Assembly (NCBI GenBank): GCA_028285415.1
Contig: JANQPF010000005.1
Location: forward strand, 434,001-498,000
DNA: 64,000 bases
Direction: 5' to 3'
Source of the DNA: Pseudomonadales bacterium
Lineage (GTDB): Bacteria; Pseudomonadota; Gammaproteobacteria; Pseudomonadales; Azotimanducaceae
In this document: positions 3,909 through 31,038 of the stretch, in pieces
Numbering within the stretch: position 1 is the stretch's first letter
How the letters are laid out: each line of letters opens with the position of its first letter
Program-made: the position numbers and the translations under genes
Notes under the pieces: model-generated
What the model saw: the letters and a program-made list of their open reading frames with translations, nothing else
What the model was told of the DNA's origin: nothing
The model's database searches: none

Positions 3909-4087
3909 TCGCTTTGTCTCAACCCGTTTATGAACGTTGCGTTACTTTGTTTGAGAAAAAACGCCACATATTGCCGTTTTCTGCACTTTTGCTTAACAAA
4001 AGATTCATACAACTGACCGATTTTTCATAAAGACATAACCTCTTTCGATTAGGGTACGGCCACCTCAGAAGCTTCCGGAGAGTGTTT

Positions 4088-6349
4088 GTGCTCAACCCCC
4101 TACCCCCCGAAGCGTTCTCGTTAGTAATTGGTTATGGATGGATTCTGGGCGTTATTGCCCTGATCGTGATGCTGCATGGACGTAAGCTGCTGGCCGCCGC
4201 GGGTTCGTTTCGCGGCTACGCGCTGACCCCTCGTGTATCACGATTCGTTTCCAGGCTTGTCGGAACCAGAAACCTTTCCGAAGAGCAGTTTTTTACCGCG
4301 GATGGTGCCGATGACAAATACGTCCTGGCACGCCGTCGCGGTCTGGAGCAGCTGGCGGGCGAGCTGAACGAGCGGAGTCCTCGGTCCAATGATTGGGCCG
4401 CGCAGCTACGCGAAAGTATGTCTGATTTACGATTCGCGGATGCGAACCGCGTGCCGTTTCCCTTTGCGGCTGTGATGCGTGACACGTTCAATCTTGCCGC
4501 CGTGGTGGAACGAACCGAAGGTCCGTACCTCTTTGATCTCGACGATAACAAGAGTCTTGATGTCAGCGGCTCCTATGGCGTCAACGTCGCGGGATACGAT
4601 CGCTATAAGTCCTGGATCAAGGAGGGTCTTGCGAAGGTCGAGGATCTTGGCCCGGTACTTGGCCCGCTGCACCCGATAGTTGTCGACAACATCCAGCGCC
4701 TGAAGCAGATCTCCAACCTGGACGAAATCTCCTTCCATACGAGTGGGACCGAGGCGGTCATGGCCGCCGTCAGGCTCGCCCGCTTCAATACACGGCGTAA
4801 GAAAATTGTCTGCTTTACCGGCGCTTACCATGGTTGGTGGGACGGCGTTCAGCCGGGGCTCGGCAGTGAAAGGGCAATCGGCGATTGCCTCACGTTGACG
4901 GAGATGAAACCCGGCGCGCTCAAAGTCATAAGGAGTCGGCGTCGGGAAATTGCGGGCATTCTCATCAACCCGGTTCAGTCTTTTCATCCCAACTCGCCGC
5001 CGCCCAACGATGCCGTGCTCCTGACCGACGAGGTGCGGAAAACTTCCGGCGGTTCGCTCGAGGATACGCGGGAATCCGACTACGCCGCCTGGCTGCGCGA
5101 CCTCAGAAAGGTGTGCGACGAGTGCGACATCCCACTCCTCTTCGACGAGGTTTACAGCGGTTTCCGCCTGGGGGTCGGCGGTGCCCAGGAGTACTTCGGC
5201 GTACAGGCTGACATGGTGATGTACGGCAAGACCGTGGCTGCGGGCCTGCCCATTGGCGTCGTTTGCGGCAAAGCCAATCTGATGCGCCGGTTCGACCCGG
5301 ACCATCCCATGCGGATTGCCTACGTTGTGGGCACGTTTTCCGCATACCCGGCGGCTATGGGCACCATGAACGAGTTTCTGCGCTGGTCCATGACGCCTGA
5401 AGCGGAGCAGGACTACAGCGCGTTAGAGCAGCGCATGGAAACCTGGGTTGGCGAGGCAAACGAATCCTTCGTCGCGGCCGATCTGCCGATACGGATCGAG
5501 CATCTGTCGACGATCTGGACGATCGAGTTCACGCAGCCGAGCCGTTTTCACTGGCTGCTGCAGTACTACATGCGTGCTGAAGGCATCGCATTGAGTTGGG
5601 TGGGGACCGGACGCTGTCTGGTGAGCATGGACTACACCGAGGCGGAGTTCGCGGCGCTCACCGCAAAACTTCACCGCGCGGCGAGCCGCATGCGTGATGA
5701 CAAATGGTGGTTGTCTGAAGCAGAGCAACCGGACAGAGCTAAAGCAACCCGTAGAGGGGTAGTTAAGGATATGGTTGGAAGTATGGTTCCAGGAACGCTG
5801 AGCGATTTTTACTCGGAGGTGATGCGGCGCAAGCATGATGACCATGAAGCGTCCCACAGCGATCGAACGAATCAGTTCTTACATCTCGTGAGTTCGAGCG
5901 TTTTTATCTATTGTTACTGGCTCGTTTTCTCGGATCTGGTCACTGCAATGTGGTTGGGTCTCGGCGCACTGTTCATTCGCCAGATAGGACACGCGCTCAT
6001 TGAGCCGCCTTGTCACGATGCTGAGCAGCTACTGCTGGGATTTGATACCCGCAGTAAAAGCGTCATCGTTGCTATTTACCTGCTGATCCCGACGGTCAAT
6101 ATCCTCGCGGCGCCGAACATGGCCTGGGCGACGCTGTTGGGACCCGTTGCCTCATCTGTTGCTGTGCAATGGTTTTACTTTACCGCCATGGTGATTTTTG
6201 GACGTGTGCTTCTGTTGATCCGGCGGCACGGCTTCAAAAACGCGATGGTATGGTTCGTGAAGCTGATCACCGATCCCTTTACGGACATCAAAGCCTACTA
6301 TTCGAGCGTAGACATTCTCGCGGGACGACGGGCAAAGAAAGCCGCTTGA
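4088..6349 (+). CDS. Class-III PLP aminotransferase fused to Mpo1/DUF962-like membrane domain
   Basis: Two-part protein of about 753 residues. Residues below are counted from an upstream GTG at 4082; the GTG at 4088 is preferred because GGAG at 4077-4080 is then correctly spaced. One membrane helix lies near residues 12-30. A fold-type I, class-III aminotransferase/aminomutase domain follows (about 110-560), with SGTEAVMAAVRLAR, YHGWWDG, Asp355 in FDEVYSGFR and the PLP lysine Lys383 in YGKTVAAGLPIG; it looks catalytically intact. After about residue 580 comes a hydrophobic domain with His592, NQFLH (His601) and IGHALIE (His637), resembling the N..hH and GH.hE motifs of DUF962/Mpo1 lipid alpha-oxidation proteins. 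The aminotransferase call is firm. The C-terminal call is tentative and the substrate is unknown. It is probably monocistronic, ending at a strong terminator. Confidence 0.78.
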   Translation: MLNPLPPEAFSLVIGYGWILGVIALIVMLHGRKLLAAAGSFRGYALTPRVSRFVSRLVGTRNLSEEQFFTADGADDKYVLARRRGLEQLAGELNERSPRSNDWAAQLRESMSDLRFADANRVPFPFAAVMRDTFNLAAVVERTEGPYLFDLDDNKSLDVSGSYGVNVAGYDRYKSWIKEGLAKVEDLGPVLGPLHPIVVDNIQRLKQISNLDEISFHTSGTEAVMAAVRLARFNTRRKKIVCFTGAYHGWWDGVQPGLGSERAIGDCLTLTEMKPGALKVIRSRRREIAGILINPVQSFHPNSPPPNDAVLLTDEVRKTSGGSLEDTRESDYAAWLRDLRKVCDECDIPLLFDEVYSGFRLGVGGAQEYFGVQADMVMYGKTVAAGLPIGVVCGKANLMRRFDPDHPMRIAYVVGTFSAYPAAMGTMNEFLRWSMTPEAEQDYSALEQRMETWVGEANESFVAADLPIRIEHLSTIWTIEFTQPSRFHWLLQYYMRAEGIALSWVGTGRCLVSMDYTEAEFAALTAKLHRAASRMRDDKWWLSEAEQPDRAKATRRGVVKDMVGSMVPGTLSDFYSEVMRRKHDDHEASHSDRTNQFLHLVSSSVFIYCYWLVFSDLVTAMWLGLGALFIRQIGHALIEPPCHDAEQLLLGFDTRSKSVIVAIYLLIPTVNILAAPNMAWATLLGPVASSVAVQWFYFTAMVIFGRVLLLIRRHGFKNAMVWFVKLITDPFTDIKAYYSSVDILAGRRAKKAA

Positions 6350-6365: not shown

Positions 6366-6396
6366 AAAAAGGCCGCGCACTGCGCGGCCTTTTTTG
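6366..6396. terminator. Bidirectional intrinsic terminator
   Basis: A perfect 8-bp GC stem (GGCCGCGC / GCGCGGCC, loop ACT) spans 6371-6389, preceded by five A and followed by six T. It can terminate both the aminotransferase gene on the plus strand and the phosphoesterase gene on the minus strand. Confidence 0.9.
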
Positions 6397-6422: not shown

Positions 6423-7238
6423 TCAGGCGCTCTTGCGGGCAGGTGTCGGTGCGAGCTCGATTTGCGGTTCGAGCTCGATAATGTCCGCAGTTGTGGCAGC
6501 TTCGTCCCATTTGATGATGCGAAAACTGCCGTTAGCGTTTTCCACGAGGGCAGTGCAGCTCTCCACCCAGTCACCGCAGTTCATATAGGTCACGCCTTCA
6601 ATCTCGCTGATCTCAGCGTGGTGGATGTGGCCGCAGACGGCGCCGTCGTAGCCCAGGCGATTGCACTGGTGGGCGATTGCACCTTCGAATTCGCTGATGA
6701 AGTTCACCGCGCGTTTGACACGGTGTTTGATCCAGGCAGACAGCGACCAGTAGCCGTAACCGAAACGCGAACGGGCTGCGTTGACCAGTCTGTTTGCTTC
6801 CAGCAGAAACGTATAACCAATGTCTCCGGCGAACGCGAGCCATTTGTGGTAACGCGTGATGACATCAAACTCGTCACCGTGGATGACAAGCAGGCGCCTG
6901 CCGTCCTGAGTTTCGTGGACGTAGCGATCGACAACGTGCAGATTGCCTATCTGCATGTCCGAATACTTGCGCAGGAACTCGTCGTGGTTACCGGTCACAT
7001 AGATCACTTCGGTTCCATTTTTGGTCATCGTCAAAAACCGGCGTAGCACGTTGTTGTGTGCCTGCGGCCAGTAAAAGCCCGATTTCAGGCGCCAGCCGTC
7101 GACAATGTCGCCGACGAGATATAGACGGTCGCAGGAGTGTGCTTTGAGAAAGTCCACCAGCTTTTCGGCCTGGCAGCCCTTGGTGCCCAGGTGGATGTCC
7201 GAGAGAAAGATCGACGGGTAGTGAGTTTTTCCGCTCAT
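6423..7238 (-). CDS. LpxH-like UDP-2,3-diacylglucosamine diphosphatase family metallophosphoesterase
   Basis: Calcineurin-like metallophosphoesterase of about 271 residues. All metal-binding motifs are visible in order: SDIHLGT, VGDIVDGW, GNHDEF, IHGDEFD and CGHIHHAEI. This is the COG2908-type family that includes LpxH, which releases lipid X in lipid A synthesis, but the protein is longer than classical LpxH and belongs to the widespread paralogous branch, so the true substrate is uncertain. The start chosen is the ATG at 7238, because GAGGAA lies 9 bases upstream; a GTG two codons earlier is too close to it. It diverges from the RND adaptor gene across 172 bases. Confidence 0.85.
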   Translation of the reverse strand: MSGKTHYPSIFLSDIHLGTKGCQAEKLVDFLKAHSCDRLYLVGDIVDGWRLKSGFYWPQAHNNVLRRFLTMTKNGTEVIYVTGNHDEFLRKYSDMQIGNLHVVDRYVHETQDGRRLLVIHGDEFDVITRYHKWLAFAGDIGYTFLLEANRLVNAARSRFGYGYWSLSAWIKHRVKRAVNFISEFEGAIAHQCNRLGYDGAVCGHIHHAEISEIEGVTYMNCGDWVESCTALVENANGSFRIIKWDEAATTADIIELEPQIELAPTPARKSA

Positions 7239-7410
7239 AGCCACAGGTTCCTCAGGTTTGGCGCAGACTACGCGCGGACTGTGAACATCAGATGACGAAC
7301 GGCCGGAAGAAAACCCGCTAACTCATTGAAAATTTGCCGATATCCACAGCAGCAATGCGCACAGGCTCACGTTTTGGCGGTACACTGAGGTTCTGCTATC
7401 CGGGGGTCGA

Positions 7411-8475
7411 ATGGTCAGAGTCTTTGGGCTGATATCGTTGTTTCTGTTGAGCGGCTGTGCCGATCGTTCGGACCCGGACCCGGCTGATCAAAGCGTACGC
7501 CCGGCGCGTATCTTTGTCGTCAAAGACACCGGCGAAACGATGCAACAGGAATTTGTCGGGCGTGTGGAGGCGGTGCAGTCGATAGACATGACGTTCGAAG
7601 TGTCGGGCCCGTTGGAGCAGCTCCCCGTGCTCGAAGGGCAGACCATCGCCAGAGGCGAGCTGGTGGCGGCGCTCGATCCCACCGATTTCGAACTTGCCGT
7701 GCGTGAAGCCCAGGTGCAGCTACAGCTCGCCAAACAGGACCTGGAACGCAAACAGCAGGTTCTGGAACAGCGGGGGATCGCGCGCTCTGTCGTCGACGAT
7801 GCCAAGTCCATCTATGACCTGCAGCGCGTCCGGCTGGACAAGGCGCGTGAATCTCTCGCGGACTCGCGGTTGACAGCCCCGTTTGATGCCTACGTGGCAC
7901 GACGTTACGTGGATAACTTTGTTACGATTCGGGCAGGAGAAAAAGTCGTGCGTCTGCACGACCCGGATCGGCTCCTGGTTGTAGCAAGCATCCCGGAACA
8001 TCTGCTGGCAACGGTTACCGACGAGCAGGTGATTGGCATCGATGCGGTCTTCGACTTTGCGCCGGGGGAGAAATTTCCGCTGACACCCTACGAGAATCGT
8101 GGCGAGGCTGACGCAGTGGCGCAGACGTACGAAGTCAGTCTGGCGCTCGACCGGCCTGAGGGGTGGAACATCCTGCCAGGCATGACGGCAACCGTAATCG
8201 GGCGTTTTCGTGACAAGGACGCCGGTGCCAGCACGATGTACGTGCCCACCAGCGCGTTGGTCAGCGACGGCCAGGAGCAGTTTTATGTCTGGCTCTTCGA
8301 CCCGGAAACCCTCGGTGTAGCGCGGCGGGACATTGCCGTGGACGCCCCCCAGGGTGATGGTGTGCCGGTGCTCAACGGATTGCAGGATGGCGACATGATC
8401 GTGGCAACGGGCGCCAGCCAGCTGCGAGAGGGCATGCGGGTGCGTGTGCTGGGTGAACCGACGGTTGAGCTGTAG
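7411..8475 (+). CDS. RND efflux periplasmic adaptor (membrane fusion lipoprotein)
   Basis: Periplasmic adaptor linking an RND pump to an outer-membrane channel. The signal peptide ends in lipobox LLSGC, so it is a lipoprotein, like AcrA/MexA. It has a biotinyl-lipoyl half (VSGPLEQLPVLEGQTIARGELVAALD), a short helical hairpin (about residues 90-145) and a beta-barrel half. It is 354 residues. ATG 7411 is preceded by GGGGGTC. It lies 8 bases upstream of the RND permease gene, and the two surely form one operon. No outer-membrane factor is encoded alongside, so the pump must borrow one. Confidence 0.9.
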   Translation: MVRVFGLISLFLLSGCADRSDPDPADQSVRPARIFVVKDTGETMQQEFVGRVEAVQSIDMTFEVSGPLEQLPVLEGQTIARGELVAALDPTDFELAVREAQVQLQLAKQDLERKQQVLEQRGIARSVVDDAKSIYDLQRVRLDKARESLADSRLTAPFDAYVARRYVDNFVTIRAGEKVVRLHDPDRLLVVASIPEHLLATVTDEQVIGIDAVFDFAPGEKFPLTPYENRGEADAVAQTYEVSLALDRPEGWNILPGMTATVIGRFRDKDAGASTMYVPTSALVSDGQEQFYVWLFDPETLGVARRDIAVDAPQGDGVPVLNGLQDGDMIVATGASQLREGMRVRVLGEPTVEL

Positions 8476-8483
8476 ACGTATTC

Positions 8484-11400
8484 ATGAGGAGCGTCGCACA
8501 GTTTTCCATCGAGCAGCCCATCTATACCTGGATATTGGTGCTCGCTTGTCTGGTGGGCGGCGTTGTGGGTATCGACAGCATCGGCCGTCTCGAGGACCCT
8601 GCGTTTCCAATCAAAAACGTGCTCATCATCACCGCTTACGCGGGGGCTTCGGCTGAAGAAGTCGAGCAGGAAGTGACCGACGTCATCGAAGCGGCGCTTC
8701 AGGAACTGCCCTACCTCGAAGAGATTACTTCCAAATCGGTTGCCGGACGCTCGGAAGTCACCGTTGAACTCAAAGAGGAATTCGGTGCGGACGAAACTCC
8801 GCAGATATTCGACGAGTTGCGACGCCGAGTGACAGAGGCGGCCGGACGTCTGCCGCCGGGAGCCGGGGTGCCGCTTGTCGAAGATGACTTCGGCGATGTC
8901 TACGGTTTCATGTACGCGGTGCATGCGCCCGATTACACACCCGCTGAAATCAGGGATATGTCCCGATTCATGTCTCTGCGGCTCAACAACGTTCCCAACG
9001 TTGCGAAAGTGCAGACGGCGGGAGAGCCATACGAGGCGCTCTACGTAGAAATAGACCACGGCAGATTTACCCGGCTTGGCCTTTCGGTCGACAACCTGTT
9101 TTCGAGCATATCCGTCGAGAATCAGGTCACTCCCGCCGGATCGGTTGCCTATGATGGCCGCAGGCTGCGCGTTGCGCCGGAGATGGCTTTCGACAGCGAG
9201 CGAGCCGTCGGCGACATGCGGATTGGCAGGCCCGGCTCCACGGAGATCCTGCGTCTGGCGGACATAGCCACAATCTCCCGCGAATCCGTGGAAGTGCCGC
9301 CGCAGCTGATTCGCCACAATGGGCGACCCGTCTTCACCGTTGGTGTGTCCGTTGTACCCGGCAAAAACGTCGTTGAGGTGGGGCGTGCTGTCGACCGTGA
9401 GATCCAGGAACTCCTCCGGTCACTGCCTCTGGGCGTAGAGATTGACAGCATCTACGCCCAGCATGAGGTGGTGGATGAAGCCATTCTCGAGTTTTTGCGT
9501 AACCTCGGACTGTCCGTTGTCACAGTTGTTCTGGCGCTGTGCCTGTTCATGGGATGGCGCGCGGGGACGGTGGTTGGAGCGGTGTTGTTGCTAACCGTCC
9601 TCGGCACCATTTGCATCATGTCGATTGCGGGTATAGAGCTCCAGCGCATTTCCCTTGGCGCACTCATGATTGCCATGGGTATGCTCGTCGATAACGGCAT
9701 TGTCGTAGCGGAAGGCATGGTCATCGGTGTGCGTAAGGGGCTGAGTCCGGCGGATGCGGCCGGTGAATCCGTACAGCGCACCCAGTTTCCACTCCTCGGC
9801 GCCACCGTGATCGGAATCATCGCTTTTGGTCCCATCAGCCTCAGCGATGACAACGCGGGACATTTCCTGGTTTCCCTGTTTTACGTGGTCGGCATTTCTC
9901 TGCTGTTGAGCTGGGTACTTGCCATCACGGTGGTGCCGCTGTTTGGCAAATACCTGCTGCGTCCCGGTGAACCCGTCGCGGAAGACCAGCTTTATGCAGG
10001 CCGCCTTTATCGGCCATACCGCGCTCTGCTGACGTTCGGCGTCAGGCGGGCGTGGTGGATGTCGCTCCTGATTCTCATCATCACGATCGGCTGCATGTGG
10101 CTCTTTCAGTTCGTGAAGCAGGGGTTCTTCCCGCTTACCAATACGCCGCTTTTCTATATTGATTACCGGCTGCCGGAAGGTACCGACATCAACACGACCG
10201 CAGCTGATGTCAGCGAGGTGGAGACGCTCATTGCCGATATGCCGGGTATAGAGGACGTCACGAGTTTTATTGGTCGCGGGGCCACGCGCTTCACAACGAT
10301 CATGAATCCCGAGCAGCCCAACAGCGCGTATGCGCAGATGGTCGTGCGCGTGGCTGATGTGGCCCAGATGAACGACATCATGACGGCGGTTGATGACGAA
10401 CTCGTTGCAGGACGCCCGGATGCAGAGATTCAGATCAGCAGGGCCGAGTTCACCCCCTCCGGAAACTCGAAGATCGAAGCGCGGTTTTCCGGTCCGGATG
10501 CGGCGGTACTCAGAGATCTGGCTGATCAAGCGCTGGGTATATACCTCCAACACGATCTGCGCGATCGCAAAACGGACTGGCGTCAACCGGTCCTGCAGCT
10601 GGTGCCGAAGTTTGACGAATCAAGGGCCAGGGTTGCCGGGGTGACGCGGACGGATCTTTCGCAGGCGCTGGCGTTTGCAACCTACGGTGTACAGGTTGGG
10701 CTCTTCCGTGATGCGGACAAGCTGATACCGATCGTTGCGCGAGCGCCGGCCGATGAGCGGGGCGACGTCGAAGACCTGCTGGAACGGCAGGTGTGGAGTC
10801 CGGCACAACAGCGGCATATTCCCATGACGCAGGTGGTTGCGGAGCTTGCGCTCGAGCCCGACGACGCCACGATCTACCGGCGCGATCGCGAGCGGACCAT
10901 TCAAGCTCAGGCGAACCCGCCGTTCGGGCACAACGCCGCGCGTACGCTCGACCGCGTCAGGCCGGACGTTGAGGCGATCCCCCTGCCGCCGGGGTATGCG
11001 CTGGAGTGGGGTGGCGAGTTCGAAGGCTCTGAGGAAGCTAACGAAAGCCTGACGTCGAAAATTCCCATTGCGTTGGGTGCCATGTTTTTCATCACCATTC
11101 TGATGTTCGGCAGAATCCGCCAGCCGGTAGTCATCTGGCTGACGGTGCCCATGACCACCTGCGGCGTGGTGCTGGGCCTGCTTGCTACCGATCTGTCGTT
11201 CACGTTCCCATCTTTCCTGGGCTACCTCAGCCTTTCCGGCATGCTCATCAAGAACTGTATTGTCCTCGTCGATGAGATTGACAAACGGTTCGATGAACAG
11301 GGTTTTGCGCTGGAAACGCTGGTCGAGGCGAGCGTCAGCAGGCTGCGCCCGGTCATGCTCGCGGCGGGCACCACAATTGCGGGTATGGCGCCGCTCCTGG

Positions 11401-11540
11401 GGGATGCGTTTTTTCTAGAGATGGCGGTGTGCATCATGTCCGGCCTTGCGTTTGCGACGTTGATAACGCTCCTTGCGGTGCCGGTGTTTTACCGCGTTGC
11501 GCTGGGCCGCCGGGTCAGCAACCACCCGGCAGGCAGCTAG
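8484..11540 (+). CDS. RND-family multidrug efflux permease (HAE1 type)
   Basis: Inner-membrane proton-driven efflux transporter of 1018 residues with the duplicated RND architecture: one N-terminal helix, a large periplasmic loop, a six-helix bundle, and the same again. The N-terminus FSIEQPIYTWILVLACLVGG and the segment ISLGALMIAMGMLVDNG (helix 4) are diagnostic. The proton-relay pair, Asp-Asp in AcrB, is Asp403-Asn404 here. The second half carries FLGYLSLSGMLIKNCIVLVDEID, the helix-10 signature with its lysine. It is cotranscribed with the adaptor at 7411. Confidence 0.93.
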   Translation: MRSVAQFSIEQPIYTWILVLACLVGGVVGIDSIGRLEDPAFPIKNVLIITAYAGASAEEVEQEVTDVIEAALQELPYLEEITSKSVAGRSEVTVELKEEFGADETPQIFDELRRRVTEAAGRLPPGAGVPLVEDDFGDVYGFMYAVHAPDYTPAEIRDMSRFMSLRLNNVPNVAKVQTAGEPYEALYVEIDHGRFTRLGLSVDNLFSSISVENQVTPAGSVAYDGRRLRVAPEMAFDSERAVGDMRIGRPGSTEILRLADIATISRESVEVPPQLIRHNGRPVFTVGVSVVPGKNVVEVGRAVDREIQELLRSLPLGVEIDSIYAQHEVVDEAILEFLRNLGLSVVTVVLALCLFMGWRAGTVVGAVLLLTVLGTICIMSIAGIELQRISLGALMIAMGMLVDNGIVVAEGMVIGVRKGLSPADAAGESVQRTQFPLLGATVIGIIAFGPISLSDDNAGHFLVSLFYVVGISLLLSWVLAITVVPLFGKYLLRPGEPVAEDQLYAGRLYRPYRALLTFGVRRAWWMSLLILIITIGCMWLFQFVKQGFFPLTNTPLFYIDYRLPEGTDINTTAADVSEVETLIADMPGIEDVTSFIGRGATRFTTIMNPEQPNSAYAQMVVRVADVAQMNDIMTAVDDELVAGRPDAEIQISRAEFTPSGNSKIEARFSGPDAAVLRDLADQALGIYLQHDLRDRKTDWRQPVLQLVPKFDESRARVAGVTRTDLSQALAFATYGVQVGLFRDADKLIPIVARAPADERGDVEDLLERQVWSPAQQRHIPMTQVVAELALEPDDATIYRRDRERTIQAQANPPFGHNAARTLDRVRPDVEAIPLPPGYALEWGGEFEGSEEANESLTSKIPIALGAMFFITILMFGRIRQPVVIWLTVPMTTCGVVLGLLATDLSFTFPSFLGYLSLSGMLIKNCIVLVDEIDKRFDEQGFALETLVEASVSRLRPVMLAAGTTIAGMAPLLGDAFFLEMAVCIMSGLAFATLITLLAVPVFYRVALGRRVSNHPAGS

Positions 11541-11685: not shown

Positions 11686-12432
11686 ATGACTCGCCAGATA
11701 TTCACGGTACTTCTGTTGGCGGCGGCCGCGCTCCTGTGGCTGCCGCAGGCGCATGCCGAAGTCACCAAAGCCAGCGACTGGGTAGGCCGTGTGGTGGTCA
11801 CCCCGGGTGGGGAACTGCTCGGGCGCATCGAGGATCTGGCGTTGGAGGACAAACGGATTGCGTTTTATGTCGTCTCCATCGGCAGCTTCCTCATTGACGA
11901 CAATTTGATTGCGGTGCACCCGGAAGCCCTGGGTGCCTCGAGCGATGGGCGCTATCTGGTGGTCTATTCGGACGACCTCGGCGGTGCCCGGCGGTTTGGT
12001 AAGGCGAACTGGCCGGACAGCCCCGACGTCATGCCAAGCGCCGAAAGAGCGGCCGTCACGGTGGATGAAAGCGTCACCGCAGAAGATGACGACAGCGGCT
12101 TCGAAGCTGATCGCATTGCGACGATCAGCGACGGCCGGCGCACCGCGACACTGAAGTCGGGCGAGCGTGCCGTCATCGAAACCGAAGGTCCGGCGCTGAC
12201 CGGGTCGGCTGAGATCGGGGTGCAGCCGAAAACGTATCGTGGTTCCAGAGGCAGTGATCCCATTGTCGCAGACAGCGAATTTGAACGTCTGGACGACGAT
12301 GGTGACGGCTATCTGAGCCGCCGGGAGATCGGTCCGCGGCTCAGACGCGACGTGCGGTATCAGGACTATGACCTCGATGGGAACGATGGCCTCGATCCAT
12401 TCGAGTACCAGGTGCTCAAAAACGATGCCTAG
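11686..12432 (+). CDS. Exported PRC-barrel protein with two EF-hand loops
   Basis: Secreted or periplasmic protein of 248 residues. A signal peptide (about 1-24, ending QAHA) precedes a PRC-barrel-like domain (about 29-85: DWVGRVVVTPGGELLGRIED). An acidic linker follows (DESVTAEDDDSGFE). The C-terminal EF-hand pair consists of D203-x-D205-x-D207-G...E214 and D229-x-D231-x-N233...E240; the second lacks the central Gly at position 6. A calcium-sensing or calcium-binding role in the periplasm is inferred. ATG 11686 has AAGGAG at good spacing. Its stop codon overlaps that of the convergent adaptor gene. It sits between two RND systems, but no direct link is shown. Confidence 0.75.
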   Translation: MTRQIFTVLLLAAAALLWLPQAHAEVTKASDWVGRVVVTPGGELLGRIEDLALEDKRIAFYVVSIGSFLIDDNLIAVHPEALGASSDGRYLVVYSDDLGGARRFGKANWPDSPDVMPSAERAAVTVDESVTAEDDDSGFEADRIATISDGRRTATLKSGERAVIETEGPALTGSAEIGVQPKTYRGSRGSDPIVADSEFERLDDDGDGYLSRREIGPRLRRDVRYQDYDLDGNDGLDPFEYQVLKNDA

Positions 12433-13694
12433 CTGTCGTTTGCCACGTCCACCAGCAGCCCGCTTATCGCGCGCGGCAGCTGGGTGGTAATGACCTGGTC
12501 ACCCGTCCCGATGGCGTCGCTGCGGATCAATATGCGATAGCCTTCGTGCTCGTTTTCGTACTCTCCGACCCGCTCGACGTCGTAACCGACGAGGCGGCTC
12601 TCACGCACGGCATAGATCCGCCCGTTGTCGTAGATTGACTGCACCGGCACTGCAATCAGGTCCGGCTGTGGCGGCAGGCTGATACGCAGATTGAAAACCC
12701 GCCCCAGCGCGGGTGCGGCCACCGCGCCGGCGTCGAACTCGAAAAACGCGTCCATGCCGGTCTGGCCGGCACGGACGTGACGGGCGAGACGCGTCATGGT
12801 CAGCGCCGCGCCGTTCTCAGCGCTTGCCGTCACCGCATTTTCCTGGAGCCTTTCAAACTGCACGGCATAGTCGTCCGGCACCTGTACGCGCACCTCAAAG
12901 CCGCTGGCGTCCGCCATTTCGATGAGCGGTGCGCTCAGGTTGCTGTGATCGCCGGGTGCCGCCTGTACGGCGAGCACCGGACCCGAGAAAGGCGCGCGAA
13001 TAGCGGTGTTGTCGAGGTCCAGGCGGGCCTGGGCGAGCAACGCTTCGGCGCGCGCAACGCCGGCTTCGTGGGCGGCGATCTGGTTGGGCAGGTTGCTCAG
13101 CACCTGCATGTGGTTGCGGAACTCGATGCTGGCCTCGTCTGCTTGCGCCTGGACCTCGTCGTAGAGGGACTTGGCGATCAGACGTTTGCTCAGAAGGTCT
13201 GCGTGGCGCTCGAGCTTGTCCTGAGCCACGCGGTATTTGGACTCGAAGTGGCTGGCGCTCTCCTGCTCGAGCTTCAGCTGCACGCGCATTGCGGCCAGGT
13301 TGGCTTCGTGCTGCTTGAGCTCTGCTTCGCGTTCGAGAACGTGCAGTGATGCCTCACGATTGTCGAGCTGTACGAGCAGCGTGCCTGCTTCCACCCAGTC
13401 ACCCTCACGAACGTTCACCGTTTCGATGCGCGCGACGAGATCGGAGCGCAGATGAGCAACGCGATTCGACTCCAGTCTGCCGAATGCCGAAAACGTGGGC
13501 TGCAGGCGTTGAGGCACTACCGGCATGACAGATACCGGCCAGGCCTTTTCCACGTGCGCGGCAGGATTTGCGGTAGGCCCGGTTGCAAAGATCGAGGCGC
13601 TGGTCAGCGCCGCAGCGCCGATGATTCCGGCGGATACGGCCACCTGGCGGCGCCTAGGCGTTGACAGCAGGCGTGCTTTCAGTTTCGACAGCAT
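12429..13694 (-). CDS. RND efflux periplasmic adaptor, HlyD/AcrA type
   Basis: Membrane-fusion protein for the RND permease encoded just upstream on the same strand. It has one N-terminal membrane helix or signal anchor (VAVSAGIIGAAALTSASIF), a lipoyl half-motif, a long coiled-coil hairpin (about residues 95-190, rich in E/Q/L and A) and the closing lipoyl/beta-barrel part. It is about 421 residues. ATG 13694 is preferred over a TTG at 13706 because GGAAAAAACG precedes it. The gene begins 41 bases inside the end of the permease gene, so translation is coupled. Confidence 0.88.
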   Translation of the reverse strand: MLSKLKARLLSTPRRRQVAVSAGIIGAAALTSASIFATGPTANPAAHVEKAWPVSVMPVVPQRLQPTFSAFGRLESNRVAHLRSDLVARIETVNVREGDWVEAGTLLVQLDNREASLHVLEREAELKQHEANLAAMRVQLKLEQESASHFESKYRVAQDKLERHADLLSKRLIAKSLYDEVQAQADEASIEFRNHMQVLSNLPNQIAAHEAGVARAEALLAQARLDLDNTAIRAPFSGPVLAVQAAPGDHSNLSAPLIEMADASGFEVRVQVPDDYAVQFERLQENAVTASAENGAALTMTRLARHVRAGQTGMDAFFEFDAGAVAAPALGRVFNLRISLPPQPDLIAVPVQSIYDNGRIYAVRESRLVGYDVERVGEYENEHEGYRILIRSDAIGTGDQVITTQLPRAISGLLVDVANDS

Positions 13695-16600
13695 CGTTTT
13701 TTCCAATGAAGTTGGCGGTGCGCGTGCTGACGCGCGATTTCAGTTGTTCGAGGAGCAGGATTAGGGCCGGCACGACAATCAGCACCAGGAGCGTCGCAAG
13801 GCTGAGACCAAAACAGATCGTGACCGCAATCGGTGCGAAGTACATCGCCAGCGTCGACGTTTCGAACATCAGCGGCAAGAGACCGGCGACGGTGGTGAGC
13901 GAGGTCAGGATGACCGCGCGGAAGCGCGCCCGCGCCGCGTCGCGCAGCGCTTTTTTAAGCGGCGTGCCGGCGTCGATGTGACGACGCAGGAAGCTGATGA
14001 GGACAATCGAATCGTTCACGACAATGCCCGTCAGCGAGAAAAAGGCCAGGAGCGACATGGCGCCAATGTCCCAGCCGGTGATCCAGTGGCCGAAAATTGC
14101 GCCGGTGAAACCGAACGGTATGGCCATCATGATGGCAAGCGGCCAGATGTAGGACGAGAATACCCAGGCCAGGATCAGGTAGATGAGGCCAAGCGTCAGC
14201 ACGCCGCCGAGCGCCATGGTCTGCATCATGACCTGGTCCTGCTCGCTCTGCCCACCCAGGCCGAAGGTCAGCTCGTAGCGATCGAGAATGGCGTTGAGCT
14301 GGTTGTCCTCTATGTCGCTGACGATGGATATGGCGTTGTTGACGTCTTCATTGACGTCGGCGGAGATGGCAGCCGCCAGCTGGGTGTCGGAGTGGCGGAT
14401 GACGTCGATGCCGCGACGGTTGTACAGCGTTGCCACGCTCGCCAGCGGGACGAAGCTGCCATCTGCCGTGCGGACGGGAAATTTCTGCAGGGCGCCGAGG
14501 CTGTCACGTTCCGCGTCCGGCAGCATCACGCGTACTTCCAGCTCCGAATCTTCTTCGTTGAAAATCTGCACTCTGGTTCCGGAGTAGGCAGAGCGAAGCT
14601 GCGCGCCGATGCTGTCTGCGGTCAGACCCAGGGTGCGGCCGCGGGGCGTCATCTCGAAGATGATCTGCTCTTTGCCGTAGGGCAGGTTGTCGGTCACGTT
14701 GGTGACGCCCGGATAGCTTGCGAGGACCGCCGACAGCTCCTCCGCGCCCTGCTTCAGCTTGTCGATGGCATTGCCGCGCAGAATGAGGGTGATGTCGGAT
14801 CTGCCGTTGTTGGCACCGCCGTCCATGCCGATGGTGAGCTGCTCCACCCAGGCAGGCCGCTCAACGCGAGCGAGCCAGGCCTCCGCGAAATCCTTGGGCG
14901 CCATGTTGCGGTCTTCCTCGTACGCGTATTGCACCTCAATGGCGGCGTACTGCTCCCCGTTCAGCCGGTCGTTGTTGAAGATGGCGCGGTTGTATTTTGC
15001 CGTCCAGCCGAGCACGTTCTGACGCGCGGTTTCGATGTGGGTGTCCTCGAGCGTGGTTTCGAGGTGGGCAACAAAGTTCTGTCTCTGGCGGTCGGTCGCT
15101 GAGCTCGAAAACTCGACGTTCGCTTCAACTGATTCGAAATCGAAGCCGGTGACCAGGTTGAAGCCGACGTGCTGGGAGGCGACCAGCGAAAACGCCACCA
15201 TCATGCCGGCAAACGCCGTGCAGAGCGTGGTGCCGGGATTGTCGAGCGCTCGCTCGACGAGCGGGAGGAAGCGCTGATCCCGAAAGTGCTCGAACCGCTG
15301 TTCGAACCGCTCGCGCCACGCGGGTTTCTCAGTCGGCGCTTTTTCCAGAGAGCTGCGTAGATGACCGGGCAGCACCCAGAAACACTCGATGAGACTGGCG
15401 GCAATGACGCAAAGGAGCACCGTTGGCAGCGCAAGAATCATGTCGCCCATGACGCCGCCGATGATCAGGAGCGGAATGAAAGCGGCCATGGTCGTGAGCG
15501 ATGAGGTCATGACGGGTACCCACATGCGCTCGGCGCCCGCAACCGCGGCTTCGGCCGGGGTGGCACCATTTTCGTGGTGGGTGACAATGTCTTCGCCGAC
15601 GACAATGGCGTCGTCCACGACGATGCCGAGCGCCATGATGAGTCCAATGAGGGCGACGATGGAGATGCCGAAGCCGAACACGGTGTGGAAGATGGCGAGC
15701 GCCAGCATGAAGCTCACGGGAATGCCGATCGTCACCCACAGGCCGGCGCGCGCGTTCAGGAACAGAAACAGCACGCCAATCACGAGCACCAGCCCGCTGA
15801 GGCCGTTTTCGACAATCATGCCCAGCTGTGCGCCGAGGACGCGCCAGATGTTCATGATCTCCTTGACTTCAACCCCCGGCGGCAGGCTCGCCTGGGTTTC
15901 AGTAAGCCACCGCTCCACAATCATGTTCGAGGTGTAGGCGTCCGTCTCTGTCGTGCGCCACAGCATCATTTCGATGGCGGGCTTACCCTCCGCGGTCAGG
16001 ATGGGCTGCCCAAGCTGCGGACGCCGCACCACTTCAGCAAAGTCTTTCAGGCGTATGAGCTGGCCTTCTGATTCGATGTGCAGCTGTTCGAACGCCAGCG
16101 GGTCGCGGCGTTGATCGAGGCTGCGCAGCTGCCGCGAGCCGTGTCCGCGTCCAACCGCTCCGGCGGGTACGTTGCGGCTCACCCGGGCCACCTCGGCGGC
16201 CACCTCGTCGAGAGTCATGCCCAGTTGCTGCAGCCGGTTGCCGCCGATGAGGAGCGCAATTTCTTCGGTTGGCAGGCCGTCGTACCAGACACCCTCCACG
16301 CCGCGACGCAGGAGCTCTTTCTCAAACCGGCGGGCGAGCGGAATGAGCTCGGCAAGGGTGCCTTCACCCGTAATCAGGATGGCGGTGATCGGCTCGGTAT
16401 CGATATGCCGGCGAATGAGCGGCGGCTCGATCCCTGCTGGAAGATTGCGGATGTTGGCGACACGCTGTTTGACGGCGTCGAGGGCCAGCGTCATGTCCGC
16501 GTCGAAGTTGAAGACCGCTTCGATGAACGTATGGCCGTTGACCGTGCGGGAATTGAGGTCTTTGAGATCGTTGACCGTGCGCAGCTGCTGCTCGATCGGG

Positions 16601-16788
16601 GTGGTGACCAGCGACTCGATGTCCTCTGCGGCGGCACCAACCCAGGATATTTCCACGAAGACCAGCGGAAAGTTTGCCGGTGGATCCAGCATGGTGGGCA
16701 TGGTGCGCACCGCCCAGATCCCGGCCAGGATCATCATGATCATGACGAGGTTGGCGGCGACCCGATGTCTGGCGAATTTTTCTATCAA
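13654..16788 (-). CDS. RND-family efflux permease with intact Asp-Asp relay
   Basis: Inner-membrane RND transporter of 1044 residues. The N-terminus MIEKFARHRVAANLVMIMMI and the helix-4 segment MALGIVVDDAIVVGED, with the canonical Asp pair, identify the family; SLTGIVVNDSIVLISFLRRH is the matching C-terminal-half signature. Compared with the plus-strand pump at 8484 it has a different helix-4 chemistry and a different gene order (permease before adaptor), so the two are not a recent duplication. Translation seems to start at TTG 16788; no ATG or GTG fits upstream. It is cotranscribed with the adaptor at 12429. Confidence 0.92.
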   Translation of the reverse strand: MIEKFARHRVAANLVMIMMILAGIWAVRTMPTMLDPPANFPLVFVEISWVGAAAEDIESLVTTPIEQQLRTVNDLKDLNSRTVNGHTFIEAVFNFDADMTLALDAVKQRVANIRNLPAGIEPPLIRRHIDTEPITAILITGEGTLAELIPLARRFEKELLRRGVEGVWYDGLPTEEIALLIGGNRLQQLGMTLDEVAAEVARVSRNVPAGAVGRGHGSRQLRSLDQRRDPLAFEQLHIESEGQLIRLKDFAEVVRRPQLGQPILTAEGKPAIEMMLWRTTETDAYTSNMIVERWLTETQASLPPGVEVKEIMNIWRVLGAQLGMIVENGLSGLVLVIGVLFLFLNARAGLWVTIGIPVSFMLALAIFHTVFGFGISIVALIGLIMALGIVVDDAIVVGEDIVTHHENGATPAEAAVAGAERMWVPVMTSSLTTMAAFIPLLIIGGVMGDMILALPTVLLCVIAASLIECFWVLPGHLRSSLEKAPTEKPAWRERFEQRFEHFRDQRFLPLVERALDNPGTTLCTAFAGMMVAFSLVASQHVGFNLVTGFDFESVEANVEFSSSATDRQRQNFVAHLETTLEDTHIETARQNVLGWTAKYNRAIFNNDRLNGEQYAAIEVQYAYEEDRNMAPKDFAEAWLARVERPAWVEQLTIGMDGGANNGRSDITLILRGNAIDKLKQGAEELSAVLASYPGVTNVTDNLPYGKEQIIFEMTPRGRTLGLTADSIGAQLRSAYSGTRVQIFNEEDSELEVRVMLPDAERDSLGALQKFPVRTADGSFVPLASVATLYNRRGIDVIRHSDTQLAAAISADVNEDVNNAISIVSDIEDNQLNAILDRYELTFGLGGQSEQDQVMMQTMALGGVLTLGLIYLILAWVFSSYIWPLAIMMAIPFGFTGAIFGHWITGWDIGAMSLLAFFSLTGIVVNDSIVLISFLRRHIDAGTPLKKALRDAARARFRAVILTSLTTVAGLLPLMFETSTLAMYFAPIAVTICFGLSLATLLVLIVVPALILLLEQLKSRVSTRTANFIGKNDAVETESTPAVNA

Positions 16789-24546: not shown

Positions 24547-24690
24547 GGGCGTGGGAGAGTACGCAGTTACGCGCGATATTTGATTGTACGGGTATACGAC
24601 TTAAGTTTGGAAAACCGTCCGGTTTGCTGAGGTAAGTTGTAGCGACGAACAACCTGCAACGGGTTGGGACAGTCAAGTTGGAGGGGAACA

Positions 24691-27600
24691 ATGCCTTCAC
24701 GTTTCGTACGTGTCGGTGGTCTTGCGCTCATCATTGCGATACTGCCTGCGTATACCTCAGTGTATGCGGCTCAGGGTCGCCAGATCGAAGAAGTTGTCGT
24801 TACGGCCGAGCGCCGTGAATCGACCGTACAGGACACCGCCATATCCATCACCGCCTTCACCGGCGAATTCATTGAAGACTTTGGTCTGCGCAATCAGGAA
24901 GATCTGCAGAACTACATTCCGGCAACCACCATACAACCGTATGACCTGTCCATCCGCGGGGTAGGACGGCTGTTTCGAGCGCTGGGCGGAGATCCGGGCA
25001 TCGCCACCTACTATGACGGCGCGTATTCCGAAGACTTCGGCATCGCCTCGACGGAAGGTGGGCTCTTCGATCTCGAACGGATTGAGGTCCTGCGCGGACC
25101 GCAAGGCACGCTGTACGGACGCAACGGCGTCGGCGGCGCGGTCAACTTCCACAGCAAAAAGCCTTCGGAAGAATTTGAAGGTGAGGTCAAGGTGATTGTC
25201 GGCTCCTACGAGCAGAAAGAGATCTTCGGCGTACTTTCGGGGCCGATCATCGACGGCTTTCTGAACGCCCGCGTGACCGGCGTAAAGCGGACCCGCGACG
25301 GCTTCATCAACGACGTTGAACCGGGCAACCCCGACATCAACAACTACGGCGACGAAAACTACTCACTGTCACTCGAATTCACGCCGAGCGAAACGCTCTC
25401 GATCTACATGCGAGGCAACGAACGCAGCTACCGGCGCATGATGTCCGGCGCTCAAGGCGCGGGTGCGATTGTCGTGTCGGAACAAGGCGGAATACGTGAC
25501 CCCGTGAGCGGCGGCGAGCGCTGGACGTCTGTGCCGGTGCATGGCTGGCGCGTGGTGCAGGATCCGATGGCAGCCGGTGCGGACTTCTGCGCGAGCGCAA
25601 CCGACCGCACCGTCGCGGACTGTATCGTGCCCACGGGTCTGGTGCCTTACATCAACGCAACTGCGCCGGGCTCGGTGACGGGTACCGGGGTGTACCGCTT
25701 TGACCTGAACGGCATCGTCCGCTACGCCCAGCCGCTGGTTGGCGGGGTGGACTCCGCAGGTGTTGCCCGCGGCGGCACGACAACAACGGGCTTTTCACGA
25801 CCCAACTACGCGTATCAGGCGTTCGGCCTGCCCGATGAGCTTGCGCGGGCCGACCAGAGTATCCAGGGGAACGGCCGGGAGATTCCGGAGCTGACCGGGG
25901 ACGATCTCGATGCCTGGACCAACGGCTTTCAGGACGAGTTTTTCGACCACCAGGCGGCGTACGTGTCCGTCACCTGGGATGCGGCGGACTGGTTGAGCTT
26001 CAAGTACATCGGCGCCTATACCGACTACTTCTACGACCGCACCACGGAAGACGACCGGACCGGTCTGCCGCACGATCAGCAGTTCTACGCGGCGCAGGAA
26101 AACGAGAACTACCAGCACGAGCTGCAGATGTTCATGGACATCGGTGAAGACATCACCTTGACGGGTGGCTACTTCTATTATGAAAACGACATCGATCAGC
26201 AGCTCGACTTCTACTCCACCGACAGCTGGTCGCGCTACACCAGTCCGGACAACATCTACGGTGACGCGGGCGCAAGCGCCTTCCTCGCCGCCGACCCGAC
26301 GGCCTTCCTTTATATCGGACCGGTGCACGTCAACCATCGCAGCGCGCAGAACATTGCGCCAGCCAATCTGGCGGGCGCAATTCCGCTTCCCTCTTTCTCC
26401 GATCCCAACATCACCGAGGTGCAGTTTGCCGATGGTGCATGGCTCGGCGACACCCTCGCAACGGGCGGACGGGTGGATCACGGCCCGGTATCTGACGGCA
26501 CCACCTTCATCTGGGATACGGAAAACCGCACCAAAGCGTGGGCGGTGTATCTGCAGGGTGAATGGCAGATCAACGATACGTGGGCGATCACGCTGGGCGC
26601 GCGCTATGCGGAAGACGACAAGGAAGCGGAAGAAAACCTCTTCCTCTATAACGAATCGGTCAGCGCGCTGGCTACCTGCGTGGCAAACACCGGTGATTCG
26701 GTCCTGTGCGGAGACGACCCCCTGGCGCCCGATGGCGTGGTGACGCTGGCGGAGTACAACCAGAACATCACCGGCGGCATAGACGCGTCCGGCAACGTCG
26801 TCGATTTCGACCGGGTAAGGTTCCGCGGCGTGCCGTTCAGTCGATCGATCTACCGGGCGATCGAGAACGAATTCGACGAAGTGACCTACAGGGTCAATCT
26901 CGATTTCACCCCCACGGAGGACGATCTGTTCTACCTGTCGATGACTACCGGGTACCGTGCGGGAGGATTCAATCTCGGCTACTTCTCGTTCATTCCAACC
27001 TACGATCCCGAAGACATCACCGCCTATGAGCTGGGTTACAAGGGTCAGCTCTTCGACGGCACCCTGCAGCTGAACGCGTCGGTCTACTACTACGACTACG
27101 AAGGCGTGCACCTGCAGTACTCAGTGTCTTCGTTCACAGGTGTGTCCACGTCGGTCAGAAATGCGCCCGGGGCGGTGACCATCGGCGGTGAGCTCGAGAT
27201 CCTCTGGCTTGCGACCGACAACCTCACGCTCGGCGCAACCTATAGCTACACGGATGCCAAGTACGACGGTGAGCTGGTCGAGCCGGCCACGGGCACCACC
27301 GGCGTTGTCGACGAAAACAATCCGTACGCACCGGCGTCGGTGTATTCGCTGGCCGAACGCAACTTCCCCATCGACGACGAGCCGCTGCCGCGCGTGCCGG
27401 AAAACAAATTCACCGGTTGGGCGGAGTACGTGCTGGAGCTGGGTGACAACGGCAAGGTCACGTTTCTGACCTCGGTCGCCTATACCGGCGAGTTTCAGGC
27501 GGCGGGTCGTCCCGTGCCGGAAAGCCCGCTCTCTGTGGCACCCGAGTACATCCGCTGGGATGCGCGCGTGACCTGGAATAGCGCGAACGAACAGTGGGGC

Positions 27601-27750
27601 GTCAGCGGATTTGTCAACAACATCATGGACGATCTTGGCGTGCGCAATCAGTTCACGTACCCGGAGTCCCAGGGGCATCGCCGCGTGATCGAACCGACGA
27701 ACCCGCGCATGGCGGGTCTGGAGATCCAATATAAATTCGGCGCGTTCTGA
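24691..27750 (+). CDS. TonB-dependent receptor, paralogue 1
   Basis: Outer-membrane TonB-dependent receptor of about 1019 residues. A signal peptide ends VYAAQG, followed by the TonB-box-like IEEVVVTAERRES. The plug follows (TTIQPYDLSIRGVGR; ERIEVLRGPQGTLYGRNG), then a long beta-barrel ending GLEIQYKFGAF with the C-terminal Phe needed for barrel assembly. The type resembles receptors annotated for siderophores or other substrates in marine bacteria; the ligand is unknown. It is clearly paralogous to the next gene over its full length. The ATG has GGAGGGG upstream. A region aligning with an EF-hand-like loop in the paralogue is degenerate here (about 26716-26757). Confidence 0.95.
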   Translation: MPSRFVRVGGLALIIAILPAYTSVYAAQGRQIEEVVVTAERRESTVQDTAISITAFTGEFIEDFGLRNQEDLQNYIPATTIQPYDLSIRGVGRLFRALGGDPGIATYYDGAYSEDFGIASTEGGLFDLERIEVLRGPQGTLYGRNGVGGAVNFHSKKPSEEFEGEVKVIVGSYEQKEIFGVLSGPIIDGFLNARVTGVKRTRDGFINDVEPGNPDINNYGDENYSLSLEFTPSETLSIYMRGNERSYRRMMSGAQGAGAIVVSEQGGIRDPVSGGERWTSVPVHGWRVVQDPMAAGADFCASATDRTVADCIVPTGLVPYINATAPGSVTGTGVYRFDLNGIVRYAQPLVGGVDSAGVARGGTTTTGFSRPNYAYQAFGLPDELARADQSIQGNGREIPELTGDDLDAWTNGFQDEFFDHQAAYVSVTWDAADWLSFKYIGAYTDYFYDRTTEDDRTGLPHDQQFYAAQENENYQHELQMFMDIGEDITLTGGYFYYENDIDQQLDFYSTDSWSRYTSPDNIYGDAGASAFLAADPTAFLYIGPVHVNHRSAQNIAPANLAGAIPLPSFSDPNITEVQFADGAWLGDTLATGGRVDHGPVSDGTTFIWDTENRTKAWAVYLQGEWQINDTWAITLGARYAEDDKEAEENLFLYNESVSALATCVANTGDSVLCGDDPLAPDGVVTLAEYNQNITGGIDASGNVVDFDRVRFRGVPFSRSIYRAIENEFDEVTYRVNLDFTPTEDDLFYLSMTTGYRAGGFNLGYFSFIPTYDPEDITAYELGYKGQLFDGTLQLNASVYYYDYEGVHLQYSVSSFTGVSTSVRNAPGAVTIGGELEILWLATDNLTLGATYSYTDAKYDGELVEPATGTTGVVDENNPYAPASVYSLAERNFPIDDEPLPRVPENKFTGWAEYVLELGDNGKVTFLTSVAYTGEFQAAGRPVPESPLSVAPEYIRWDARVTWNSANEQWGVSGFVNNIMDDLGVRNQFTYPESQGHRRVIEPTNPRMAGLEIQYKFGAF

Positions 27751-30900: not shown

Positions 30901-31038
30901 GTCAACAACATCCTCGACGAGGTTGGCGTGCGCAACATGAATGTGGAAGATCATAACCAGAACTTCCGCTACACCGTTGAGCCCTCCAACCCGCGGATGG
31001 CAGGTCTGGAAATTCAGTACAAGTTCGGCGCTTTCTAA
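27976..31038 (+). CDS. TonB-dependent receptor, paralogue 2, with EF-hand-like loop
   Basis: Outer-membrane TonB-dependent receptor of 1020 residues: signal peptide ending AFAAEG, TonB-box-like IEEVVVTAERRES, plug (QPYDLSVRGIGRLYRALGG; GPQGTLYGRNGIGG) and a barrel ending GLEIQYKFGAF. The plug is almost identical to that of paralogue 1, whereas some segments predicted to be surface loops diverge, so the two probably bind related ligands. Residues 683-694 form a canonical EF-hand loop pattern (D-G-N-G-D-G...E) that is broken in paralogue 1. The start codon follows GGAGGGGAAAAC. A terminator closes the gene. Confidence 0.95.
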   Translation: MLSRVYRVSTAALAAVVLLPAFTTSAFAAEGRQIEEVVVTAERRESSVQDTAISITAFTGEFIEDFGLRNQEDLQNYIPATTIQPYDLSVRGIGRLYRALGGDPGVATYFDGAYSEDFGIASTEGGLFDLERIEVLRGPQGTLYGRNGIGGAVNFISKRPTEEFEGEIKTIWGSYDTKEIYGVLSGPVIDGFLNARVTGVKRTRDGFMDELGDGTDTAGNPVSTGRNRDLNNYGDENYALTLEFTPTDSLNILIRGNERSYRRNMSGAQGAGSLVVSEAGGLRDPVTGGERWTSTPMYGWRTVQDPMSAGATFCADAIDRSTPDCIVPTGIVPYINGTAPGSIQGTGVYEFNFNGITRYAQPIVAGVDSRGDTNARNNYAYNANAGQIAKLNASTIGPGNELPELEGDDLVAWTNGFNDEFFDQQAAYASVTWDVRDNLTIKYIGGYTDYWYDRTTEDDRTGMPHDHQFYAAQENENYQHELQFFWDINENLNVTAGLFVYENDIDQQLDFYHTDSWTKYTDNNEAEMYGVLAPLYAAFFPGEDGMGSMVNHRSAQNMVRASPGLGAVVDDPTTAVDETFGGALKTSFQINSLWQGDNLENGRVDHGPVSDGTTFIWDTENRTSAKAVYFQGEWQINDTWALTLGGRWAEDKKEAEENLFVYAEAAVLGLCDAFGPDPALCGDGNGDGVTTLAEYNQNITGALDADGNLINFDTLRTQGVPLAASIYREMEETFDDVTWRVNVDFTPTEDDLVYFSVTTGYRAGGFNLGFNSPTPVYDKEDIIAYEIGYKGQWFDGTMQVNAAAYLYEYEGIALQFRENGGTFGPGTSVTNGPDVDTIGFEGDVLWLATDNLTLGLNYSYTNTEYQGDSDRLIIDNSNPYAPIPVYAESELEVSIDGEPVPRIPENKATIWAEYTMNLGDNGKVIFLSSLNWTDEFAARGSPRPETPLTVAPDYMRWDARITWNSADEQWGVSGFVNNILDEVGVRNMNVEDHNQNFRYTVEPSNPRMAGLEIQYKFGAF

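Follow-up and report, generated by a model that had tools for sequence, protein, structure and literature searches.

The closest described systems are the lipid-remodelling pathways of phosphate-starved bacteria, of which PlcP, Agt and BtaAB are established genes according to the available sections of PMC4796936 and PMC9239053. In the accessible part of PMC4796936, PlcP strips the headgroups from lipids, putative aminolipids are reported, the way in which marine heterotrophic bacteria make DGTA awaits characterisation, and the known kit of PlcP, Agt, BtaAB and OlsBA leaves some of the observed lipids unexplained. The word aminotransferase has no occurrence in the text of PMC4796936 at hand, and the word decarboxylase has none in that of PMC9239053. 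The gene set described here resembles PlcP-Agt-BtaAB remodelling, as far as these sections of the two papers (PMC4796936, PMC9239053) describe it, in that its relatives have PlcP-like, GT4 and BtaA/BtaB genes as neighbours together with Pho boxes. In contrast, it also includes a transaminase, an Mpo1-like protein and a second type of phosphatidylserine decarboxylase (PSD). Phosphate-limitation lipid remodelling is already known, and the enzymes named here would be new to such systems; a search of open-licence papers brought up no report of the fusion or of the module.

We analyzed a fused gene in a 64-kb stretch of DNA, referred to below in its entirety as the window. The features of the locus are as follows.

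4077..4080, plus strand: Shine-Dalgarno-like GGAG, 7 nt before the GTG at 4088
4088..6349, plus strand: fused gene, 753 aa plus stop; the alternative start GTG 4082 gives 755 aa
4109..4201, plus strand: N-terminal membrane helix, residues 8-38, by hydropathy (helix 9-39 in the structure model, in the 4082 numbering)
4418..5671, plus strand: class-III PLP transaminase domain, residues 111-528 (Pfam Aminotran_3; phmmer to 6kfm/6kfu)
5144..5146, plus strand: Asp353, cofactor-binding Asp (FDE), invariant in 27/27 aligned rows
5228..5230, plus strand: Lys381, PLP Schiff-base Lys (YGK), invariant in 27/27 aligned rows
5795..6310, plus strand: Mpo1-like C-terminal domain, about residues 570-741 (family matches to PF06127; all-helical model)
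5837..5884, plus strand: first half of the His/Asp cluster, D584 D585 H586, H590, N595, Q596 and H599, invariant in 55 rows
5987..6007, plus strand: second half of the cluster, G634 H635 ... E639 P640, invariant in 55 rows
6366..6395, no strand: terminator-like inverted repeat with flanking A and T runs, between the convergent fused and PlcP-like genes
6423..7244, minus strand: PlcP-like metallophosphoesterase, convergent neighbour (Metallophos; BtaA-BtaB-metallophosphoesterase synteny of relatives)

Read from GTG 4082, the frame stays open until the stop codon ending at 6349. The spacing from GGAG is good for GTG 4088 and too short for GTG 4082; therefore, 4088 is the better start, which bears out the start chosen in the first-pass annotation. 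That annotation had described a single protein in which an intact class-III PLP domain is joined to a C-terminal domain and preceded by a membrane helix at the N-terminus, and the 753-aa frame confirmed this composition. Its Asp355 and Lys383, counted from GTG 4082, are present and correspond to Asp353 and Lys381 in the 4088 numbering used here, in which its NQFLH and IGHALIE motifs are residues 595-599 and 633-639. The hydrophobic stretch at residues 8-38, together with the helix that the structure model predicts there with moderate confidence, indicated that the fused protein is membrane-anchored. Only transaminase rows went into the full-length model, which is consequently poor in its C-terminal part and supports no claim on interdomain geometry.

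The PLP domain matched Aminotran_3 (PF00202) at 115.8 bits, compared to a curated cut-off of 30.5 (E 2.5e-33). Judged from its residues, the PLP chemistry of the fused protein is predicted with confidence to be intact. The protein is similar to known class-III aminotransferases, such as the mycosubtilin AMT domain and glutamate-1-semialdehyde aminomutase, in matching over the whole domain and in having the catalytic Lys and Asp. However, it differs from them in its membrane anchor and in a conserved family N-terminus, whose consensus SDxxFTxAYRVPF reads SDLRFADANRVPF in the window protein. No NCBIfam model reached its cut-off among the best 25 of 69 matches (best 162 bits compared to 398), and in a further comparison of the transaminase the best 25 of 57 were likewise all far below their cut-offs; by sequence, the domain therefore looks like a class-III subfamily of its own.

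The C-terminal domain had previously been read as Mpo1/DUF962-like, and this reading holds up at the family level. As many as 47 of 55 aligned rows matched PF06127 at E<=0.001, with no match to any other Pfam family, and one homologue from the genome search (G082) exceeded the PF06127 cut-off with 25.3 bits. The window copy, however, was among the eight non-matching rows and scored 16.7 bits, under the 24-bit cut-off, and it is called Mpo1-like because its relatives match PF06127. Comparison with small PF06127 alignments by hhalign was modest, giving a probability of 71% with the short forms and 11% with the long forms. The residues of the His/Asp cluster were similarly invariant in a 22-row set that includes two other fusions. 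Two small sets of accepted PF06127 proteins have invariant His pairs spaced exactly as H590 and H599 are, with eight residues between them. H635 and E639 are spaced like H75 and E79 of the short PF06127 set, and four of the five rows of the long set showed GHxxE, one residue shorter. Thus, the domain is best described as a remote PF06127 (DUF962; yeast Mpo1) homologue, sharing with that family the His pair, a later H/E and several hydrophobic helices. In contrast to PF06127, the window family is about 200 aa long when separate, has extra invariant residues such as DDH and is linked to headgroup enzymes, and the window copy is fused to a PLP enzyme and scores below the Pfam cut-off.

An AlphaFold2 model of the C-terminal domain was all helical, with a mean pLDDT of 82.9. 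Foldseek gave no match to this model at E<=0.001 in PDB or BFVD, so that an unrelated membrane fold was not seen there, but positive fold evidence was not obtained either; profile searches of PDB sequences also found no relative. By order, the first three His residues of the cluster precede the first hydrophobic helix or coincide with its beginning, and H635 falls towards the end of the second such helix; they would thereby share one membrane face.

The mycosubtilin AMT domain aminates a 3-oxoacyl chain, and yeast Mpo1 carries out Fe(II)-dependent alpha-oxidation of 2-hydroxy fatty acids. An alternative reading is thus acyl-chain or long-chain-base chemistry, in which the transaminase would aminate a 3-oxoacyl chain and the Mpo1-like domain would perform alpha-oxidation as in yeast. 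The phmmer search of PDB points in this direction, since the best matches of the PLP domain were the AMT domain of mycosubtilin synthase (6kfm and 6kfu, E 4.7e-51 and 1.1e-50), ahead of glutamate-1-semialdehyde aminomutases (E 1.5e-31), and so does the name of PF06127, which Pfam takes from 2-hydroxy-palmitic acid dioxygenase. We nevertheless consider it quite unlikely, as the high-frequency partners among the gene families counted by tblastn in the loci below are headgroup enzymes.

The same architecture was then sought in other genomes and found in four besides the window's (G128, G329, G314 and G327), whose fused frames are 57-64% identical to it over 702-742 aa. In a midpoint-rooted tree without outgroup, which left out four repeats (L050, L056, L073 and L082) and rows below 480 aa, the five fused transaminases grouped as a single clade (support 100), distinct from the 85 separate transaminases. 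The fusion occurred in the window's genome and G128 within a class sample of 274 genomes, and in four of the 36 genomes of the family of G128, G128 included. Elsewhere, the two halves are encoded by separate genes that for the most part lie near each other. The fused and separate forms also differed in their company. Among 17 chosen genomes, all five fused ones had one PSD copy, whereas all 12 with the separate form had at least two. BtaA was present in four of the five fused genomes, the window's being the exception, compared to one of 17 chosen separate-form genomes, where it is in two pieces. At the four other fused loci, BtaA is divergent from the fusion and is followed by BtaB and then a PlcP-like gene (the same order in 4/4), with a GT4 beside. 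An unassigned ORF of about 246 aa, HAD-looking by eye, was also seen beside the fusion at these loci (L042, L160, L161 and L162); the copy from L161 matched no Pfam or NCBIfam family.

The neighborhoods of the relatives were analyzed next. Scanning with the C-terminal family gave at least 591 confirmed relatives, of which the best 80 were kept with up to 10 kb on each side and their neighbors counted by tblastn; the hosts among these 80 include Bradyrhizobium, Marinobacter, Colwellia and Paraglaciecola. The transaminase was found within 10 kb in 78 loci and a distinct second PSD-family decarboxylase in 76. The sequence ends near the module in both loci that lack the transaminase and in three of the four that lack the PSD; in the fourth, L108, it does not. 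A GT4 was found in 49 loci and a larger GT4 fusion in 21 others (70 in all), leaving ten with no clear GT4; some of those counted may be other GT4s, because the counts reach down to 27% identity to one reference. A PlcP-like metallophosphoesterase occurred in 20 loci, BtaA in three and BtaB in four (one at 28% identity). BtaA and the second PSD stood together in three loci (L075, L114 and L127), indicating that the split between them is not absolute. Of eight distinct module PSDs, seven were 49-58% identical to the eighth, used as the reference, compared to 29-34% for 13 housekeeping PSDs, those of the fused genomes included, and two module PSDs passed the equivalog cut-off for phosphatidylserine decarboxylase (166.5 and 168.1 bits compared to 111.75). 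A PmtA-like methyltransferase was present in 21 loci, all alphaproteobacterial by title and with copies 58-100% identical to one of them. It lies between the GT4 and the Mpo1-like gene in Bradyrhizobium loci such as L094 and L117, and its best NCBIfam match was PmtA, with 144 bits, under the cut-off of 390. Besides this methyltransferase, the most frequent of the top 30 clusters of recurring neighbors, which are unannotated and were read by eye, occurred in 18 of the 80 loci (median 7.1 kb).

The first-pass annotation had proposed a membrane-bound route acting on an amino-lipid or a long-chain amino alcohol. The gene context supported a membrane-bound lipid route; the long-chain amino alcohol, however, is not supported as substrate, since the recurring neighbors are headgroup and phosphate-starvation lipid genes.

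The larger GT4 protein has about 900 aa (e.g., L043:5843-8551), with the GT4 at its C-terminus and an N-terminal part that has no Pfam match; tblastn gave 24 matches to it, three of them weak, and 21 were counted. A PHP domain, proposed by eye for the N-terminal part, had no support in Pfam. Of 25 chosen module genomes, 20 had PlcP and no larger fusion, all four with the larger fusion were without PlcP, and G346 had neither. The absence of PlcP from these four suggests that the N-terminal part of the larger fusion replaces PlcP.

We also observed that four metagenome bins titled Bordetella parapertussis (L075, L076, L085 and L100) carry the module. In the tree, three of their transaminases shared an unresolved group with a bin of betaproteobacterial origin, and the remaining one was placed next to an Acidobacteriota bin; because of this placement, the titles may be wrong.

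Pho boxes were then scored with an 18-bp sequence that we take to be the consensus, requiring at least 11/14 within 200 bp upstream, and the expectation was derived from dinucleotide shuffles. To limit redundancy, 13 Bradyrhizobium loci were dropped, leaving 67 of the 80, as were short genes and upstream pieces below 150 bp. Boxes were found upstream of 25 of 65 Mpo1-like genes (shuffle 1.45), 16 of 60 transaminase genes (shuffle 1.6) and 9 of 19 PlcP-like metallophosphoesterase genes (shuffle 0.45), compared to 9 of 302 control ORFs of the same loci (expected 4.67). The GT4 genes gave 20 of 51, or 20 of 34 without rows inside larger fusions (16 of the 51 rows were of this kind). The PSD was barely enriched, with 5 of 62 (shuffle 1.05). 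Fisher values compared to the control ORFs were 3e-14 for the Mpo1-like gene, 3e-8 for the transaminase, 1e-16 for the filtered GT4 and 0.07 for the PSD, and they are optimistic, given the common descent of the loci and the upstream regions that divergent genes have in common. At least one box preceded a module gene in 41 of the 67 loci; among those with the larger GT4 fusion the proportion was lower, at 8 of 21. A 14/14 box was present upstream of the GT4 in at least four Bradyrhizobium loci (L094, L107, L117 and L121). At the other fused loci, 11/14 boxes lie between BtaA and the fusion in L042 and L160, and none was found in L161 and L162. In the class sample, which was drawn evenly, PlcP was present in seven of the nine genomes that have the C-terminal domain, compared to 73 of the 265 others.

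The fusion can thus be regarded as a Rosetta stone: it joins two proteins that elsewhere are separate neighbors of each other, of a second PSD and of a GT4 and, in subsets, of PlcP, BtaA/BtaB and a PmtA-like enzyme. Since other bacteria usually encode the two enzymes as separate neighbors next to phosphate-starvation lipid genes, the fusion suggests an uncharacterised route by which nitrogen enters membrane lipids under phosphate scarcity. That the fused enzyme belongs to phosphate-limitation lipid remodelling is, in our judgment, probable. As for its part in that pathway, we favor by a little over even chances a two-domain inner-membrane enzyme that builds or edits a nitrogen-bearing headgroup. 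In such an enzyme, the PLP domain, held at the cytosolic face by the N-terminal helix, would transaminate a lipid-borne carbonyl or amine. The helical Mpo1-like domain would hold a metal in the H586/H590/H599/H635/E639 cluster at the membrane surface and perform an oxygen-dependent step on the same lipid, which would either generate the carbonyl or remove one carbon. PlcP and the GT4 would provide diacylglycerol or glycosyl-diacylglycerol, on which the two domains would jointly supply or edit a nitrogen-bearing headgroup. PSD-type decarboxylation in the separate form, or BtaAB chemistry in most fused forms, would act in the same pathway, and the fusion may channel an unstable intermediate. This specific division of labor between the two domains is tentative, and we would sooner doubt it than rely on it.

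The same neighbors could be read in the opposite direction. Class-III enzymes commonly use terminal amines, and the makers of amine headgroups in these loci (the second PSD, BtaA and the PmtA-like enzyme) could supply a substrate for headgroup salvage. The transaminase would then deaminate phosphatidylethanolamine, phosphatidylserine or a homoserine lipid. What remains would be removed oxidatively by the Mpo1-like domain, so that nitrogen and carbon are recovered and phosphate is saved. We regard salvage as unlikely: co-located N-methyltransferases and PSD would suggest building over breaking, and PlcP, in the available part of PMC4796936, already strips headgroups.

The window itself was less complete than the loci of its relatives. 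The PlcP-like gene converges on the fused gene across the inverted repeat; an LpxH identity was rejected for it (43.3 and 44.6 bits compared to cut-offs of 190.35 and 134), and by synteny and this exclusion it is a putative PlcP-like phospholipase C. No Pho box of at least 11/14 was found in the window, the best upstream of the fusion or the PlcP-like gene being 9/14. The genome had no BtaA and no module-type PSD, its single PSD being of the housekeeping type. No module-type GT4 was found within the 64-kb window; the nearest GT4 relative in the genome, 50% identical to that of one fused locus, lies about 190 kb from the fusion (G000:C15:630107-631057). These observations count against a headgroup-building enzyme here, and because of them we describe the window as carrying the core enzyme and PlcP, with the remaining parts of the module missing or dispersed. 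Elsewhere in the window, two tandem TonB-receptor-like ORFs (24664-27750 and 27976-31038) resemble each other by eye, N-terminal stretches included, and are probably a duplication, and two RND-type efflux pump gene pairs, also called by eye, lie close together on opposite strands (7411-11540 and 12429-16788).

The absence of BtaA, of the module PSD and of a Pho box at the locus would also fit a transferred orphan that has a different or reduced role in the window's genome, whatever the module does elsewhere. In line with this, 24 genomes of the same genus, some of them incomplete, had no match to the whole fusion, and two of them (G006 and G013) had the separate form. However, the fusion retains its full set of catalytic residues and an intact His cluster, and the PlcP-like gene has stayed next to it; we consider an orphan role improbable and retain the headgroup-building enzyme as the preferred reading.

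A more specific proposal for the module, which we offer as a long shot, is that it makes a phosphorus-free zwitterionic lipid mimicking phosphatidylethanolamine or phosphatidylcholine, by a route so far undescribed in bacteria. The GT4 would add a sugar or uronic acid to diacylglycerol, and the Mpo1-like protein, acting as an iron oxygenase, would cleave the headgroup so made. The transaminase would aminate the cleaved headgroup to a serine-like residue, which the second PSD would decarboxylate to an ethanolamine-like group, and the PmtA-like enzyme would N-methylate the latter. Such a product would be akin to betaine lipids, for instance DGCC or DGTA, and the fused form would be the one employed by genomes that usually have BtaAB. 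BtaAB make DGTS, and we know of no bacterial genes for DGCC or DGTA. A search of 100 sources for UDP-glucose dehydrogenase, whose presence would support a uronic-acid headgroup, gave matches in only 6, and in two of these the identity did not exceed 30%.

When phosphate is limiting, bacteria replace phospholipids with other lipids, and the conserved module provides a concrete candidate gene set for such a replacement: a dedicated transaminase, an Mpo1-like protein and a second phosphatidylserine decarboxylase, the Mpo1-like member alone having at least 591 relatives. If this is true, Mpo1-like proteins would extend from fatty-acid alpha-oxidation towards bacterial headgroup chemistry.
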